This document shows, one piece after another, positions 28,424 through 35,668 of a DNA stretch of 42,958 bases. The notes under the pieces were generated by a model. That model did not search any database and was not told the DNA's origin. It saw only the letters and a list, made by a program, of their open reading frames with translations. The DNA comes from Thermodesulfobacteriota bacterium (lineage in GTDB: Bacteria > Desulfobacterota > UBA8473). Positions within the stretch are counted from its first letter, which is position 1; every line of letters begins with the position of its first letter. Location of the stretch: the NCBI GenBank assembly GCA_040757775.1, contig JBFLWQ010000025.1:1-42958 (forward strand), written 5' to 3'. Position numbers and translations under genes: made by a program.

Positions 28424-29779
28424 ATGGAAGGTGCCAAGATACTAGTAGTTGATGACGACGAGGTAACAAGGAAGAACATCTCGCGTATTCTTTCCAATGC
28501 CGGATACTATGTTTCCGTGGCTAAGGATGGGACAGGCGCACTAACACAACTTTCAAAGGGTGGGGTGGATCTCGTACTTACCGACTTGGTGATGAATGGG
28601 CTGAGTGGACTGGAGCTTCTCGACAAGATTAAGCATGACGATCCGGAGATTGAAATCATTATGATGACTGGCTATGCTTCAATTCCCACTGCAATAGAGG
28701 CCATGAAAAAAGGGGCGTATCATTACCTGGAGAAGCCTTTTCGTAGGGAGGAAGTGCAGCACCTTGTAGGTCAGGCCATTGAGAAACGGCAGCTTCGCAG
28801 GCGGGTAAGCGAACTGGAATCCCGGGCCAAGGAAGATGTTAAAGAGCTAGCCTTCATCGGGGAAAGCAAGGAGATACAGGAAGTAACCAGGATAATCAAG
28901 CAGGTAGCGAGGACAGATTGTAACGTGCTCATCACCGGTGAGTCGGGAACCGGCAAGGAACTGGCGGCTTCCCTGCTACATCACTATAGTCACCGCTCGA
29001 AAAGCAAGTTTCTGGCAGTCAACTGCGGTGCCTTCACTGAGGAGCTTCTTGCCAACGAGCTTTTCGGACACGAGAGGGGAGCCTTCACCGGGGCCAACAG
29101 CCAAAAGGCCGGTCTCCTGGAGACCGCAAGCGGAGGAACATTTTTGCTTGACGAGATTGGCGACACTCCGCTTAGCATGCAGGTTAAGCTAATGAGGGCT
29201 ATTGAGGAACAGAAGGTGATAAGAGTTGGCGGTAACCAGCCTATCCCCATTGACGTTAGGATCATCGCTGCCACCAACAAAGACTTGAAGAAGGCGGTGG
29301 GGGCAGGAATATTCCGACATGACCTTTACTTCCGGCTTAATGTAATATCCATATCCATTCCACCTCTCAGGGAGCGAAAGCAGGACATACCTCTCCTTGC
29401 ATATTTCTTCTTAAATCGTGCTGCAATGAATGCCGGAAGGAAGTTCAAAGGATTTTCCGACCAGGCCATAAAAGCCTTGCTTGATTATGATTTCCCGGGC
29501 AATGTGCGCGAGCTCGAGAACATAGTGGAGCGAGCGGTGGCCATGGGCCGGGAAGAGGAAATCCAAGTACATGACCTGCCTTCAGATCTTTCCGAGATTG
29601 AGGTCTTTTCATTTGACCATGCCGGATCCAATATAAAGACCCTCAAAGATGTCCAGCACGATTATATTCAATGGGTTTTGAACCGCGTGGGTCGAAACAA
29701 GACCAAAGCAGCAAAGCTTCTTGGAATAGATCGGGTCTCATTATGGAGGCACTCTAAACAGAATCAGATTGAGGATTAA
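28424..29779 (+). CDS. NtrC-family sigma-54-dependent response regulator
   Basis: This 451-residue regulator has a receiver domain (about 4-120; phospho-acceptor Asp54 in LTDLVM, Lys in EKPF). The AAA+ sigma-54 activator domain (about 147-375) carries Walker A GESGTGKE near 172, the sigma-54 contact loop GAFTGA near 219 and Walker B GTFLLDEIGD. A C-terminal Fis-type helix-turn-helix (NKTKAAKLLGIDRVSLWRH) follows. A near-consensus sigma-54 promoter and a palindromic enhancer candidate lie directly downstream, before the stress-protein/permease genes, so that operon is its likely target. The kinase encoded at 33999 is a likely partner (inference). Confidence 0.95.
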   Translation: MEGAKILVVDDDEVTRKNISRILSNAGYYVSVAKDGTGALTQLSKGGVDLVLTDLVMNGLSGLELLDKIKHDDPEIEIIMMTGYASIPTAIEAMKKGAYHYLEKPFRREEVQHLVGQAIEKRQLRRRVSELESRAKEDVKELAFIGESKEIQEVTRIIKQVARTDCNVLITGESGTGKELAASLLHHYSHRSKSKFLAVNCGAFTEELLANELFGHERGAFTGANSQKAGLLETASGGTFLLDEIGDTPLSMQVKLMRAIEEQKVIRVGGNQPIPIDVRIIAATNKDLKKAVGAGIFRHDLYFRLNVISISIPPLRERKQDIPLLAYFFLNRAAMNAGRKFKGFSDQAIKALLDYDFPGNVRELENIVERAVAMGREEEIQVHDLPSDLSEIEVFSFDHAGSNIKTLKDVQHDYIQWVLNRVGRNKTKAAKLLGIDRVSLWRHSKQNQIED

Positions 29780-29782
29780 CTA

Positions 29783-29796
29783 TTGCATATTTCAAC
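29783..29796. promoter_or_regulatory. imperfect second enhancer half, TTGCATATTTCAAC
   Basis: This site matches the palindrome at 29874 at 12 of 14 positions (TTGCATACTGCAAC against TTGCATATTTCAAC). It lies 92 bases upstream of it, just after the regulator gene's stop codon. Two sites of this kind would suit an NtrC-type dimer pair, but one imperfect match could be chance. Confidence 0.35.
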
Positions 29797-29873
29797 AGAA
29801 CTGATGAAAAATTCAACTAATCTATATTCTCTAGTTATTTTAAGTAATTAGACAAGGCTATCTTACCCCCCCA

Positions 29874-29888
29874 GTTGCATACTGCAAC
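29874..29888. promoter_or_regulatory. palindromic upstream activator site candidate, GTTGCA-TAC-TGCAAC
   Basis: A perfect 6+6 bp palindrome with a 3-bp centre lies 80-94 bases upstream of the sigma-54 promoter. That is the usual distance for an NtrC-family enhancer. The adjacent gene encodes such an activator with a Fis-type DNA-binding domain. Confidence 0.6.
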
Positions 29889-29967
29889 AACGAAGTGCCA
29901 ATTATCTACATCCTTCTTTCAGGCTTTTTACCTTTAAATTCCTTCAGTTATAGCTACTTACCGCTTT

Positions 29968-29983
29968 TGGCATTATTATTGCT
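29968..29983 (+). promoter_or_regulatory. sigma-54 promoter
   Basis: TGGCATTATTATTGCT matches the -24/-12 consensus TGGCAC-G-N4-TTGCW, with GG at 29969-29970 and GC at 29981-29982 at the exact 12-base spacing. Transcription would begin near 29994 and run into the stress-protein operon. The rest of the 29780-30118 gap is AT-rich and carries only the activator sites listed separately. Confidence 0.8.
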
Positions 29984-30118
29984 TATTTCTCATTCAGGTA
30001 TCAACGGGCTTACGTCCAAATCCTTTTTCGCTCTGTTCAAAATGCTTTTTTGATGACCGCTCAAAGGAATTTTCGTTTGGGCAACAGTCTGTTAATTGAG
30101 GTGCCAAACGAGCAAAAA

Positions 30119-30532
30119 ATGTCAGGTAAGGCGATGGTTTTATTCGACTCCCTGTCCATCCGGGAGGATGCTGTTCAATACTCCATTGAATTGGCAAAGC
30201 GCATGGATTACTCCCTGGTTATCCTTATTGTTCTGGCGCTCGATAGCAAGGACGTCAGGTATCCAAACGATTTTGAGGTGCGAGTCAGGGAAGCTTTGGA
30301 GGGTCCTATGATGTCTGCAGGGCAAGCGGGTATTTCCGTGGAAACAGAGATTAGAATGGGAGATCCTGCATCCGAGCTCATGAAGTTTCTTGCCGGGTTA
30401 AAGTCGGTCGATACCATCATCTGGGGAGGTCACCGGGATGTAGGCACACCAAGGCTCAAAAAAGCGCATTGGTTTACCAGGATGAAAGAGACACTGGAGT
30501 GCCCGGTGGTGGTCCCATCAAGGAAGTCGTGA
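30119..30532 (+). CDS. universal stress protein (UspA family)
   Basis: This 137-residue UspA-like protein begins KAMVLFDSLSIREDAVQYSIELAKRM, the expected first strand and helix. It ends with a WGGHRDVG segment and CPVVVPSRK. The ATP-binding G-2x-G-9x-GS motif is not intact, so it may not bind ATP. The start is uncertain: 30119 gives the compact domain but has a poor ribosome site, and an ATG at 30053 would add 22 residues. It is the first gene after the sigma-54 promoter, 29 bases before the kinase-like gene. Confidence 0.75.
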   Translation: MSGKAMVLFDSLSIREDAVQYSIELAKRMDYSLVILIVLALDSKDVRYPNDFEVRVREALEGPMMSAGQAGISVETEIRMGDPASELMKFLAGLKSVDTIIWGGHRDVGTPRLKKAHWFTRMKETLECPVVVPSRKS

Positions 30533-30561
30533 AATAAATGTAAAAATTGGAGTAAGAGACA

Positions 30562-32124
30562 ATGCAAATCATATGTATTTCGAGCGGAGCCTACAGTGGC
30601 GGCCAGGATCTGGCTAGGCGCCTAGCCGAGAAGCTGGGTTATGGTTGCTTGAGCCGGGATGAGCTTATAGAGGCAGCAACCAGGGAAGGCATACGCGTGG
30701 GCAAACTGGAGATGGCCATGGTAAAACCGGGCATTTTCAGCGAGCGCCTTGCCCTTGAAAGGGACATTTACCTGGCTTTTTCCACCGCTTACCTGTGTGA
30801 GAGGGCAAAAGAAGGTGGGCTTGTATACCATGGTCGAACCGGCCATCTCCTGCTTTCCGGAGTAAGCCATGTGCTGCGCGTGCGTGTGCTGGCAGACGAG
30901 GAGTATCGTATTCGTGCGGTTATGCAAAAGCTCGGCCTGGTCCGTCAAAAGGCCCAAAAGTATATACAGGAAGTTGACGAGGACAGGAGAAGATGGGTCC
31001 ACTCCATGTACGGGGTGTCATGGGACGATGCAGCCAACTACGACATGGTTATAAACCTTGCCCGGTTGAGCCTGGAGAACGCAGCCACTGTCCTCATGAA
31101 CATGGCCCAGCTGCCCGACTTCCAGATGACCCCGGCCTCCATGAGAGCCATGGATAACCTCAGGTTAGCGGCTGGGACCAGGATGGCTATTGCCAAAGAT
31201 GAACGGACCCATGAGGCAAGTGTAAAAGTGAGGGCTGATAACGGCTTGGTCACTGTGACCTACCTGCCCCAAGATGCCGGGTTTGCGGATTTCATACCGG
31301 CGGTTTGCAAAAACCTGCCCGGTTTGAAGGAAATCCGCGCTACCATGGCTATGACCAATCTCCTCTGGATAGAAGAGGAATTCCAACCTGGATCGGAGGT
31401 ATGGGACCATGTGCTGGAGATAGCCACCAAGTGGAATGCAGCGGTGGAGCTTATGAGACTGGCACCCGAGGGCGGGGAAACCGTAGAAGAAGGGCAGGCT
31501 ATAGTGGGTTCGGCAAGGAATACAGCCATCCCCGGCTTGAGGGAGTATAACGGAGGTATCGAAGATGATGTGCCGGAGAATGAGGCAGCCGACAACGGGG
31601 GCCTCAAGGAAACCCGTGATGAGCTTGCCAGGATTGGAAAATCAGGCGGAGGGCGCGTGGTCTATGGCGGACAGGATCAATTGATAAATGCTATAGACCG
31701 AACCATCCCTTATACATTAGTAGTTATAGGGGAAGTATTCAAGTCAAAAGACCACTCCACGAGACTTCGGGCCACCCGGGACCTCAGTAGCTTTTTAAGC
31801 GACCGCATCAAGGCGCCGGTGGTGACCTCGGACGAACTGGGAAGCCAGTTCCTGTTCGGAAAGCGCGACATCCCGAAGGTGGCTACTCTCGTGATCGTGG
31901 TGTTTGCGATTTACCTTCTGGTGTTCACAAACCAGGAGTTTGTTTTGGCTTTTCTGTCTCAGGCTGGATGGTATGCTGAAGCAGTCAAGGATACCATCCT
32001 CTCAATAGTGGATTGGGGTCCCAAAATAATAGTGTCATTGTCGGTGTTTATTTTTGCGCCAATTGTGGCTTATTGTTATGGGACCGTAGTTAGGGCAATT
32101 ATGAAGTTGATAAAAATGGAATGA
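30562..32124 (+). CDS. cytidylate-kinase-like membrane protein with BON-like and stress-protein-like segments
   Basis: This 520-residue multidomain protein begins with a Cytidylate_kin2-like fold (about 1-190; SSGAYSGGQDLARRLAEKLG). Its phosphate loop lacks the usual Lys/Arg, so kinase activity is doubtful. A BON-like segment spans about 205-270 (ASVKVRADNGLVTVTYLPQDAG). A region at about 355-425 looks like a Usp core (YTLVVIGEVFK). Two membrane helices follow at about 440-460 and 487-508. Genes of this kind beside TauE/SafE permeases are known to me from sulfate reducers. The protein may sense a nucleotide or ion and act on the permease encoded 24 bases downstream (inference). Confidence 0.75.
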   Translation: MQIICISSGAYSGGQDLARRLAEKLGYGCLSRDELIEAATREGIRVGKLEMAMVKPGIFSERLALERDIYLAFSTAYLCERAKEGGLVYHGRTGHLLLSGVSHVLRVRVLADEEYRIRAVMQKLGLVRQKAQKYIQEVDEDRRRWVHSMYGVSWDDAANYDMVINLARLSLENAATVLMNMAQLPDFQMTPASMRAMDNLRLAAGTRMAIAKDERTHEASVKVRADNGLVTVTYLPQDAGFADFIPAVCKNLPGLKEIRATMAMTNLLWIEEEFQPGSEVWDHVLEIATKWNAAVELMRLAPEGGETVEEGQAIVGSARNTAIPGLREYNGGIEDDVPENEAADNGGLKETRDELARIGKSGGGRVVYGGQDQLINAIDRTIPYTLVVIGEVFKSKDHSTRLRATRDLSSFLSDRIKAPVVTSDELGSQFLFGKRDIPKVATLVIVVFAIYLLVFTNQEFVLAFLSQAGWYAEAVKDTILSIVDWGPKIIVSLSVFIFAPIVAYCYGTVVRAIMKLIKME

Positions 32125-32147
32125 ACCGGTTATGAAAGGAGCAGGTT

Positions 32148-33242
32148 ATGCCTGAGCTTATATTTTCGCATTTTATTCAAATTGACTTCGCTACCGCCCT
32201 CCAGGTGGTGATTCTGGGATTTATCGGTGGAATTTTGAGTGGTTTTATAGGGAGTGGCGGTGCCTTCTTCATGACTCCAGGCATGATGAACCTGGGTATA
32301 CCCGGCGTGATGGCAGTAGGAAGCAATATTACCCACAAGTTCGGCAAGGCCTTGATGGGTAGTAAGAAGCACAGCGAATATGGCAACGTGGACAAACGTC
32401 TGGCGGTGTGCATGGTGACAACCTCCCTCGTCGGCATCCGGCTGGCCGTCTGGATCAATAGCACCCTCTTCAAGATAGGGGGGGAAGGACATGGCGAGGG
32501 CGGTGGTGGTGCGGCTTCCGACCTCTATATTAGCGGGGTGTTCATCTTCATTCTGACCATAGTGGCTATATCAATGTTGCGGGATGCTCTCAAGTCCGGT
32601 AATGAGGGTGAAGGGCCGTCTATGAAGATCGTGAACTTCATTTCCAGGCATAACCTTCCACCTTACATAAACTTCAAAGTATCGGATGTCAGAGTATCCT
32701 TATGGGTGGTTCTTATCTGCGGTTTTGCCACCGGTTACCTGGCTGGCACCATAGGAGTAGGCGGGTTCATAGGCGTGCCGGCCATGATCTACGTTTTCGG
32801 AGTACCTACTGCCGTAGCTGCCGGCTCTGAGCTTTACCTGGCAATGTTCATGGGAGCATGGGGGGCGCTAGATTATGCCTTCCAAGGATTTGTAGACATC
32901 CGGCTCACCATGCTCCTATACCTGGGCTCACTCATCGGGGTATATATCGGAGCTTATGGTGTCAAAGTGGTGAAGGAGGTGGTTATAAGGATAGTGACCG
33001 GGGCAATCATCTTGATATGTGTGGGAAGCCGGGCAGTCGCGGTACCCATGTACCTGCGCCGGCTTGGCTGGATAAGCTTTAACCCTGCCTGGGATACCTA
33101 CTTCAACCAAGCCAGCAAGGGACTGCTTTTTCTGGCCGGAATATCGGGAATGATCATAATTCTCTACAATGTGGTTAAAGCTTATCGGCAAAGAAGGCAC
33201 ATCAGGACAACATTGATTGGGGCAGGGGCACTTCCGGAGTAG
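32148..33242 (+). CDS. TauE/SafE family anion permease
   Basis: This 364-residue inner-membrane protein has about eight hydrophobic segments and two homologous halves. Their signature loops are GFIGSGGAFFMTPGMM and GTIGVGGFIGVPAMIYVFGV. TauE/SafE proteins export or import sulfite, sulfoacetate, thiosulfate and related organic anions. A glycine-rich loop (GGEGHGEGGGG, near residue 110) separates two helices. It is the central gene of the sigma-54-controlled cluster, and its ligand is not determinable here. The ribosome site is AAAGGAG. Confidence 0.9.
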   Translation: MPELIFSHFIQIDFATALQVVILGFIGGILSGFIGSGGAFFMTPGMMNLGIPGVMAVGSNITHKFGKALMGSKKHSEYGNVDKRLAVCMVTTSLVGIRLAVWINSTLFKIGGEGHGEGGGGAASDLYISGVFIFILTIVAISMLRDALKSGNEGEGPSMKIVNFISRHNLPPYINFKVSDVRVSLWVVLICGFATGYLAGTIGVGGFIGVPAMIYVFGVPTAVAAGSELYLAMFMGAWGALDYAFQGFVDIRLTMLLYLGSLIGVYIGAYGVKVVKEVVIRIVTGAIILICVGSRAVAVPMYLRRLGWISFNPAWDTYFNQASKGLLFLAGISGMIIILYNVVKAYRQRRHIRTTLIGAGALPE

Positions 33243-33320
33243 GCATAGAAGAGTGCAACCGCGTATCAAAGATACAAATGGACACTCGCGTAGTCATACT
33301 TTTAGTAAAGGAGTACGGCC

Positions 33321-33935
33321 ATGGATGATAAAATCAAAAAAATAGACGACTGGATGGTAAGGATAACCTTCGCTGAAGCAGGAAAGCCGGAAACGGGTTT
33401 TCGTCTGACCGGTGCTGATCTGAAAACGAAGCTTGCCCTGGACAAGATAATGGTTGTGAGATCGGAAAAAACCAACGGCGAAATAAGGAGGGATGGAGAA
33501 ATCATGGAAATGCCAGATCAACAGAAACCGGAAATAAAAAAGGGTGGAAAGCTGAACGTTATGATACTGGACGATGAACCCATTGTTGGAAAGCGTCTGA
33601 AACCTGCGCTTATAAAGGCAGGGTTTGACGTTGAAGTTTTCCTGAATCCCAGAGAAGCCCTGGCTCGCCTGGACGAACAAGAGTTCGACATAGTCGTCAC
33701 CGACCTGAAGATGGAAGAGGTGGACGGTATTCAGGTACTGGAGAATGTCCTCTCCAAATGCAAAAAAACCAGGGTGATCCTAATTACGGGATATGCCACC
33801 GTAGAGGTGGCAAGAGAGGCACTGGTGAAAGGGGCCTTTGACTTTATCGCAAAGCCTTTCAAGCCCAACGACTTGAGAGCGGTGATTAATAAAGCGGCCT
33901 TGTCTATGGGGCATAAAGGGGTCACTTTTGATTGA
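33321..33935 (+). CDS. response regulator, receiver only, with an unusual N-terminal extension
   Basis: This 204-residue protein has a C-terminal CheY-like receiver (about 77-198) with acidic pocket DDEP, phospho-acceptor Asp128 in VVTDLKM, Thr in LITGYA and Lys in AKPF. No output domain is present. Residues 1-60 (DDWMVRITFAEAGKPETGF) are not part of a receiver and are unrecognised. An internal ATG at 33504 has GGAGG 13-17 bases upstream, so a receiver-only product or an ancestral two-gene fusion is possible. It sits between the permease and a sensor kinase and is probably phosphorylated by that kinase. Confidence 0.85.
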   Translation: MDDKIKKIDDWMVRITFAEAGKPETGFRLTGADLKTKLALDKIMVVRSEKTNGEIRRDGEIMEMPDQQKPEIKKGGKLNVMILDDEPIVGKRLKPALIKAGFDVEVFLNPREALARLDEQEFDIVVTDLKMEEVDGIQVLENVLSKCKKTRVILITGYATVEVAREALVKGAFDFIAKPFKPNDLRAVINKAALSMGHKGVTFD

Positions 33936-33998
33936 GCATTTTCATAGAGGTACTATCCGGTTGCTTACAGGTTCCATCCTGTGTTATAAAGATAGACT

Positions 33999-35510
33999 AT
34001 GACCACACCTACTATAGAATCACTTCCTTCATGGGAAGACCTAGCAGAAGAGGCTCAGCGTGCGCTCAGAAAACGTCCATCCGTGTCCATACGGGTCAGG
34101 CTCACGCTGGGGTTTTTGGCATGGTTCGTCTTAAGCCTTGCCATAGCGGTTTTTTCAATGGTCAATGTCTCCAGTATCAGAGAGAAGCTACAGTTCTTGG
34201 AATCCGCACAGAACTATATCTTTGAGATACAACAGGCAAGAAGGTTTGAAAAGAACTTCTTTTTGTACCACACAAATCTTGATGATGCACTTGAACATGT
34301 CCACAATGCCAGGGAAATCCTGAAAACCAACGGCCAAGAAATGGGCAAGGTTGTAGGGGGGAGAAACTACGACACCATGAAAAGTCACCTGAAACAATAT
34401 GAAGGCCTCCTCTTAGAAATCAAGAAAACTGAATCCAAAAATGAAAATCCAGCTCTCAAACTCAAACCCATAGAATTAAGACTGCGCCAGTTCGGCGCGG
34501 AGATGGTCATCGTGGGGAATCAGCTCGTAGCTAAAGAACGCGAGCAGGTGAACTCCTTGCTCGCCTTGTCCCATAAGATACCCCTCGTCTTTTTAGCCCT
34601 TCTCATCCTTCTCATCCTCTCAGTCGCGTACTTTATTGTCAACCAGATGCTGGCCTCCTTGAATCGAATGGTGCAGGCCACCACCCGCATCGCAGAAGGA
34701 GACTTTACTCCTATTACACCGAAGCGTCGATACAACGATGAGTTCTCCAGGCTTGCCATGGCTCTGAACCACATGATGCTACAGTTGGTCCGCCGCCAGG
34801 AGCAACTCGTACAAGCCCACAAGCTGAAAGCAGTAGGGACCCTTACCGCGGGCGTGGCCCACGAACTCAACAATCCCTTGAATAACATCATCCTGACCTC
34901 ATCCGCCCTGATGGAGGAATACAAGGGGCTCTCCGATGAAGAATTCGAGGACATGATAAACGACTTGTTGAACGAGTCCGAGCGGGCACAAAAAATCGTT
35001 CGAAAGCTCCTCGATTTCGCGAGAGAAAGCGAGATGGAATCAGAGGCCATTGAGGTCGAAGAGGTCATAGACCAGACACTGCAACTCGCAAGCAACCAGA
35101 TCAAATTGGCCAATGTTAAGGTAAAAGGCGAAATTAGTTCCGAGCTTCCACAGGTTTACGGGGACAGGCAGCAGCTCATCCAGGTATTTCTGAACATCGT
35201 CCTGAATGCCCTCGATGCCATGCCAAATGGTGGCACACTCAGCATTTCAGTCCACAATACCAAGGACCGTGAATACGTTGCCATAGACTTCACTGATACC
35301 GGCGTGGGAATACCCGAGCATAAGCTCGGGAATATCTTCGACCCTTTCTATACGACCAAACGAGACGGCAAAGGCACGGGCCTTGGCCTTTCAGTAAGCC
35401 TAGGGATAGTGCAAAAGCATGGCGGAGAAATCACAGTATCTAGCAAGTTAAACAAGGGAACAACTTTCTCTATGCTCCTTCCCGCCGCAAAGATACCGGC
35501 CAGCATGTAG
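33999..35510 (+). CDS. membrane sensor histidine kinase
   Basis: This 503-residue kinase has membrane helices at about 34-57 and 195-217 flanking a periplasmic helical sensor (QQARRFEKNFFLYHTNLDDALEHV). A HAMP linker follows (about 218-270), then a HisKA domain with phospho-His288 in GVAHELNNPLNN. An HATPase domain carries NIVLNALDAM, DTGVGIP and GTGLGLSV. The sensor resembles the all-helical periplasmic domains of chemoreceptors. It ends the sigma-54 cluster, and the two response regulators nearby are candidate partners. The signal is unknown. Confidence 0.93.
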   Translation: MTTPTIESLPSWEDLAEEAQRALRKRPSVSIRVRLTLGFLAWFVLSLAIAVFSMVNVSSIREKLQFLESAQNYIFEIQQARRFEKNFFLYHTNLDDALEHVHNAREILKTNGQEMGKVVGGRNYDTMKSHLKQYEGLLLEIKKTESKNENPALKLKPIELRLRQFGAEMVIVGNQLVAKEREQVNSLLALSHKIPLVFLALLILLILSVAYFIVNQMLASLNRMVQATTRIAEGDFTPITPKRRYNDEFSRLAMALNHMMLQLVRRQEQLVQAHKLKAVGTLTAGVAHELNNPLNNIILTSSALMEEYKGLSDEEFEDMINDLLNESERAQKIVRKLLDFARESEMESEAIEVEEVIDQTLQLASNQIKLANVKVKGEISSELPQVYGDRQQLIQVFLNIVLNALDAMPNGGTLSISVHNTKDREYVAIDFTDTGVGIPEHKLGNIFDPFYTTKRDGKGTGLGLSVSLGIVQKHGGEITVSSKLNKGTTFSMLLPAAKIPASM

Positions 35511-35639: not shown

Positions 35640-35668
35640 TTGACATGTTCCTGATTCTGTTTTACAAT
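35640..35668 (+). promoter_or_regulatory. sigma-70 promoter for pyrE
   Basis: A perfect TTGACA -35 (35640-35645), a 17-base spacer and TACAAT -10 (35663-35668) lie 118 bases before the pyrE start. The resulting leader of about 110 bases contains a GC-rich palindrome. Confidence 0.7.

Follow-up and report, generated by a model that had tools for sequence, protein, structure and literature searches.

The window analyzed here is the complete 42,958 nt contig JBFLWQ010000025.1 (positions 1–42,958; assembly GCA_040757775.1), which is contig C25 of the 3.10-Mb genome of a Thermodesulfobacteriota bacterium (Desulfobacterota; UBA8473). Between purL-purF on one side and pyrE on the other, it contains a gene for an NtrC-type sigma-54 activator (28424–29779, + strand) and, after 273 noncoding bases, five genes that are all on the + strand and separated by short gaps. 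These code for a universal stress protein (Usp), a kinase-like fusion protein, a TauE permease, a single receiver and a histidine kinase, and the first-pass annotation had called all six genes correctly (in our analysis, NtrC-type activator with GAFTGA, Usp, Cytidylate_kin2-like, TauE, single receiver and HAMP histidine kinase). The GC content of the module genes is 47–53%, vs. about 44% for purL, purF and pyrE, and the module was not found in four congeners searched (some with incomplete genomes, one 98% complete); together, these two features suggest that the module was acquired. The kinase gene is followed, ahead of pyrE, by a strong sigma-70-like promoter (11/12; 35640–35668), as would be expected if the operon did not extend into pyrE.

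Predicted products of the module

The activator comprises a receiver, an AAA+ domain with Walker A TGESGTGKE and GAFTGA (residues 219–224), and a Fis-type HTH with the recognition helix ...GIDRVSLWR.... The Pfam domains Response_reg, Sigma54_activat and HTH_8 all score above cut-off, and the acidic pocket and phospho-acceptor Asp are present; from its sequence, the protein is thus a predicted response-regulator-type bEBP. Its scores stay below the curated NCBIfam cut-offs for NtrC (431 of 558.6 bits), ZraR (390.5 of 760 bits) and AtoC (411.9 of 714 bits), and equivalog status with any of these was therefore rejected.

The Usp gene (30053–30532, + strand) has an uncertain start, which alignment with relatives would place at 30119. 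The next gene (30562–32124, + strand) had been noted as kinase-like; this holds in that the product is Cytidylate_kin2-like, its only Pfam domain found, but it is in fact a multi-part fusion of 520 aa with a degenerate nucleotide-binding loop, in which a cytidylate-kinase-like fold is followed by a BON-like domain (residues about 195–275), Usp-like segments (about 279–425) and two TM helices. The P-loop region reads GAYSGGQD in the window, an alignment of 15 orthologs has no conserved Lys there, and the best NCBIfam score is 34.7 bits against a cut-off of 102.1; for these reasons a true cytidylate kinase was discarded, the fold being nonetheless CMP-kinase-like. The fusion profile touches OsmY (BON) at residues 195–258, with a BON E-value of 0.0068 in one member. 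In the predicted model (mean pLDDT 75, pTM 0.59), the kinase fold is nearest to 3hdt and 3fdi and is accompanied by the BON-like part, a split alpha/beta part, which may be Usp-like, and two C-terminal helices, which we take as membrane helices. We read this fusion as a membrane-anchored pseudokinase, binding or sensing rather than phosphorylating.

The permease (32148–33242, + strand) belongs to the TauE/SafE (TSUP) family, with 122.3 bits to Pfam PF01925 against a cut-off of 32.6; a search of solved structures with the TauE profile gave no sequence match. The single-receiver response regulator (33321–33935, + strand) carries a lineage-specific N-terminal extension of 77 aa (33321–33551) that sits behind a good ribosome-binding site and has no relative in 14 other loci. 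The histidine kinase (33999–35510, + strand) has two TM helices, a periplasmic helical bundle, HAMP, HisKA and HATPase. In sequence, its catalytic core comes closest to ZraS, which partners a sigma-54 regulator; among the matches listed in a fold search with the kinase model, all were to the catalytic core and none to the sensor.

Promoter and paired palindromes upstream of the Usp gene

The noncoding region ahead of the Usp gene contains a -24/-12 sigma-54 promoter, TGGCATTATTATTGCT (29968–29983, + strand), which matches TGGCAYN5TTGCW exactly, and from which transcription would be expected to start at about 29994–29996. A perfect GTTGCA-N3-TGCAAC palindrome, GTTGCATACTGCAAC (29874–29888, + strand), precedes it by 94 bases start to start, with 79 bases between them, and a distal copy, ATTGCATATTTCAAC (29782–29796, + strand), with 10 of the 12 defined bases, starts three bases past the end of the activator stop codon. 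The first-pass annotation had described this same arrangement, with promoter, perfect palindrome and imperfect second copy between the activator gene and the Usp, kinase-like, TauE, receiver and kinase genes, and our analysis agrees with it in coordinates and position. The promoter has GG-N10-GC within TGGCAY-N5-TTGCW and the genome encodes rpoN (contig C11, E 7.9e-63). Likewise, the palindromes have the features expected of enhancer sites for the adjacent activator, namely a position within the 70–200 bases upstream of the promoter, conservation together with the activator gene, and co-variation with the HTH of its product (see below).

The exact pattern TGGCAYN5TTGCW occurs at 18 sites in the genome, vs. 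one for a reversed-pattern control, and one of the 18 precedes an amtB-like gene, which indicates that this genome uses such promoters. The perfect palindrome occurs only once in the genome. Additionally, when the 220 bases upstream of each of the 18 exact promoter sites are compared, only this site has a 12/12 palindrome, the next best reaching 9/12. The uniqueness of the palindrome and its absence from the other exact sigma-54 sites point to a dedicated local circuit, in which the activator seems to serve the operon of the window alone, leaving aside weaker targets, which this test would miss.

Conservation of the module and its control region

Across the phylum, 14 further genomes encode full-length orthologs of the fusion protein. 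Searches at the genus, family and class levels around the genome of the window, including seven relatives of the same family, gave none; the matches of about 260 aa that they retrieved are short paralogs in other contexts. A single-protein scan of the genome contigs matched only a remote kinase. In the relatives, the activator and Usp genes come before the fusion gene, those for TauE and the single receiver come after it wherever the contig continues, and the kinase gene is downstream or beside the activator gene, such that the order NtrC-Usp-fusion-TauE-receiver, with an adjoining kinase, is kept in several families of the phylum.

The region upstream of Usp was usable in 11 relatives, and all of them have a -24/-12 element ahead of this gene, whose score ranks within the top 4%, or better, of the shuffles. 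A pair of GTTNCA-N3-TGNAAC sites is present in nine of these 11, and for each of the nine no more than 4 in 1000 shuffles gave such a pair; the proximal copy starts 70–94 bases before the -24 element and the distal copy either 23 or about 92–113 bases further upstream. In the other two, one (L045) has a variant operator, GTTGCG-N4-CGCAAC, and the other (L046) has none that is clear. The operator arms of L042, from another family, are identical to those of the window in all 12 positions (GTTGCATTCTGCAAC). Besides cross-matches between palindrome copies, the best parallel-order matches between the noncoding regions of the window and L042 are the palindrome and the promoter, and the match falls almost wholly within operators and promoter. 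This comparison can be considered a phylogenetic footprint in favor of the earlier reading, which had proposed to look for palindrome and promoter in orthologous loci and would have been abandoned had neither been conserved in relatives with the same genes.

These data also bear on whether the palindrome and promoter could have arisen by chance in an AT-rich gap. If one mismatch is tolerated, the window has three occurrences of the promoter pattern, against 2.96 expected, so that relaxed matches are about as frequent as chance predicts; the match here, however, is exact and coupled to a unique perfect palindrome, and dinucleotide shuffling of the intergenic region (1000 shuffles) never gave the palindrome pair and reached the promoter score about once. 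We regard a chance origin as exceedingly improbable, and conservation in the relatives rules it out.

Sequence variation in the operators parallels that in the activator. The half-site has a G at base 4 in the window, in L042 and in the L045 variant, and a C or T in the other relatives; a G at this base goes with the recognition helix IDRVSL(W/Y)R, and a C or T with (S/P)RTTLWR. This co-variation fits the neighboring activator being the binder of the operators, the helix and operator sequences falling into few clades, so that the cases are not independent.

The module is enlarged in several relatives. The additions, seen among L040 (15527–18043 and 2156–4744), L041, L042 and L043, comprise proteins of about 825–860 aa, PEP-synthase/PPDK-like by eye, as well as an additional TauE-type permease and its companion protein. 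A second, short kinase-like protein of the fusion's family is found in L045 (13745–14578), L046 (13382–14242), L073 (4705–5559) and L074 (4045–4869), downstream of TauE and the receiver and often with a duplicated receiver.

A putative sigma-54 circuit around a TauE permease

At the level of sequence, the genes, their conserved order, the promoter, the paired operators, the operator/helix co-variation and the single target in the genome are shown. The idea of a self-contained sigma-54 regulatory unit, put forward in the first-pass annotation, is supported by the conservation of gene order, promoter and operators, by the co-variation, and by the presence of rpoN and of many sigma-54 sites. As far as the regulatory circuit is concerned, we consider it highly probable that the locus forms a two-component sigma-54 circuit dedicated to a small-anion transporter. 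In our model, the membrane kinase would sense a periplasmic cue through its helical-bundle domain and phosphorylate the NtrC-type activator; phosphorylation of the stand-alone receiver is probable as well. Activator dimers would bind the two GTTGCA-N3-TGCAAC sites, which are spaced by about 90 bases, and the GAFTGA AAA+ ring would open the sigma-54 polymerase complex at the promoter, switching on the Usp, the fusion membrane protein, the TauE permease, the receiver and the kinase, the last of which would generate positive feedback. The fusion and Usp would probably gate the permease or couple it to the energy or nucleotide state, and its most likely cargo would be a sulfur oxyanion.

Two other readings deserve attention. 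The locus could be a general stress module in which Usp and the fusion are the effectors, the permease is secondary and the kinase senses envelope or energy stress instead of an anion; in its favor, the operon combines a BON-like part with two of Usp type, and DVU3305 with DVU3302-3298 of Desulfovibrio vulgaris is described as a stress system containing UspA domains (PMC3333781). Nevertheless, TauE is the most conserved product, with 62–69% identity in 12 relatives, vs. 39–45% for the fusion, and is never absent where the contig continues, which makes this reading rather unlikely. Of comparable, low probability is that the kinase pairs only with the adjacent single receiver while another kinase controls the activator, in which case the loop would not be self-contained, although promoter and output would be unchanged. 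The adjacency of the receiver and kinase genes agrees with this, as do the second kinase beside the activator in L040 and L043 and the kinase directly upstream of it in L047, L075 and L077; against it, only one kinase lies near the activator in the window, and the activator-side and receiver-side kinases are related, with the same helical type of sensor.

For the dedicated circuit that we favor, the nature of the cargo is less certain. The first-pass annotation proposed a sensing and anion-transport system, of which the regulatory unit is supported and anion transport is a prediction from TauE family membership only. The TauE family and the sulfate/sulfite-reducing lifestyle make a sulfur oxyanion (sulfite, sulfate or organosulfonate) our best guess, which we place slightly below an even chance. 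Gene dsrA scores above the curated cut-off in 10 of 10 module carriers tested, but also in six of seven family members without the module, and is present in congeners that lack it; the link of the module to sulfur is therefore weak, and the module would be an accessory to, and not a mark of, sulfite reduction. More speculative, and in our judgment quite unlikely as a whole, is a hitherto undescribed mobile module of sulfate/sulfite reducers, controlled by a sigma-54 circuit with positive feedback, in which the membrane-anchored pseudo-nucleotide-kinase/BON/Usp fusion reads the nucleotide state (energy or APS/PAPS) and gates a TauE permease dedicated to sulfur oxyanions.

Our literature searches for this gene combination found no description of it, although there are comparable systems. 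The sigma-54 operons of D. vulgaris include nine with transporters of the TSUP or PSE families that have no known substrate, and the substrates of TSUP operons are described as unknown (PMC4641369). As judged from its description, the nearest in logic is DVU0539-DVU0545 from Desulfovibrio vulgaris Hildenborough, which also has a two-component sigma-54 activator and kinase by an operon with Usp proteins and a transporter; DVU0539 activates the DVU0542 promoter in Escherichia coli, and the cluster has fitness effects under molybdate (PMC3333781, PMC10102598). Its transporter, however, is a putative sulfate-type exporter of the PSE family instead of TauE, its operons are divergent, and no kinase-like/BON fusion is described there. 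Sigma-54 activators and promoters likewise drive transport operons in DVU2956/DVU2957-DVU2964 and in DVU0110 or DVUA0057/DVU0132-DVU0133 (PMC4641369), where TSUP (TauE-type) permeases are represented by DVU2958 and within the DVU0132-DVU0133 operon (PMC5840216, PMC4641369); going by the descriptions, DVU2956 differs from the activator of the window in lacking a receiver domain, and the operon make-up is also different. The window unit shares with ZraS-ZraR and NtrB-NtrC a transmitter kinase, a receiver-AAA+-Fis activator, paired enhancer sites and a sigma-54 promoter, and differs in sensor domain and targets. By analogy, the unit may work like the Desulfovibrio sigma-54/two-component/Usp/exporter clusters, with respect to which, as described, the different transporter and the fused pseudokinase are new.

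Many TauE-type permeases of sulfate reducers have no known substrate, and the unit makes both cue and cargo testable, since a predicted activator, its operators, promoter and target set are found in one place and conserved across several families. The operator/helix co-variation offers a ready test of specificity, and the fused pseudokinase, so far unstudied, is a candidate for regulating a permease.

A separate observation concerns the dsr genes of the same genome, where a layout of histidine kinase, NtrC-type activator and sigma-54 promoter heads a gene run to dsrAB. An exact TGGCATGTTTTTTGCT (6742–6757 in L097, corresponding to 44742–44757 of contig C8, - strand) lies behind the activator gene and about 2.1 kb before dsrA. 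Control by sigma-54 at the start of a dsr gene run would merit a separate study, and our literature search found no paper devoted to it. A -24/-12-like element is present in the matching dsr region of all five family members examined (G001, G004 and G005, and, as CGGCAC, G006 and G007).
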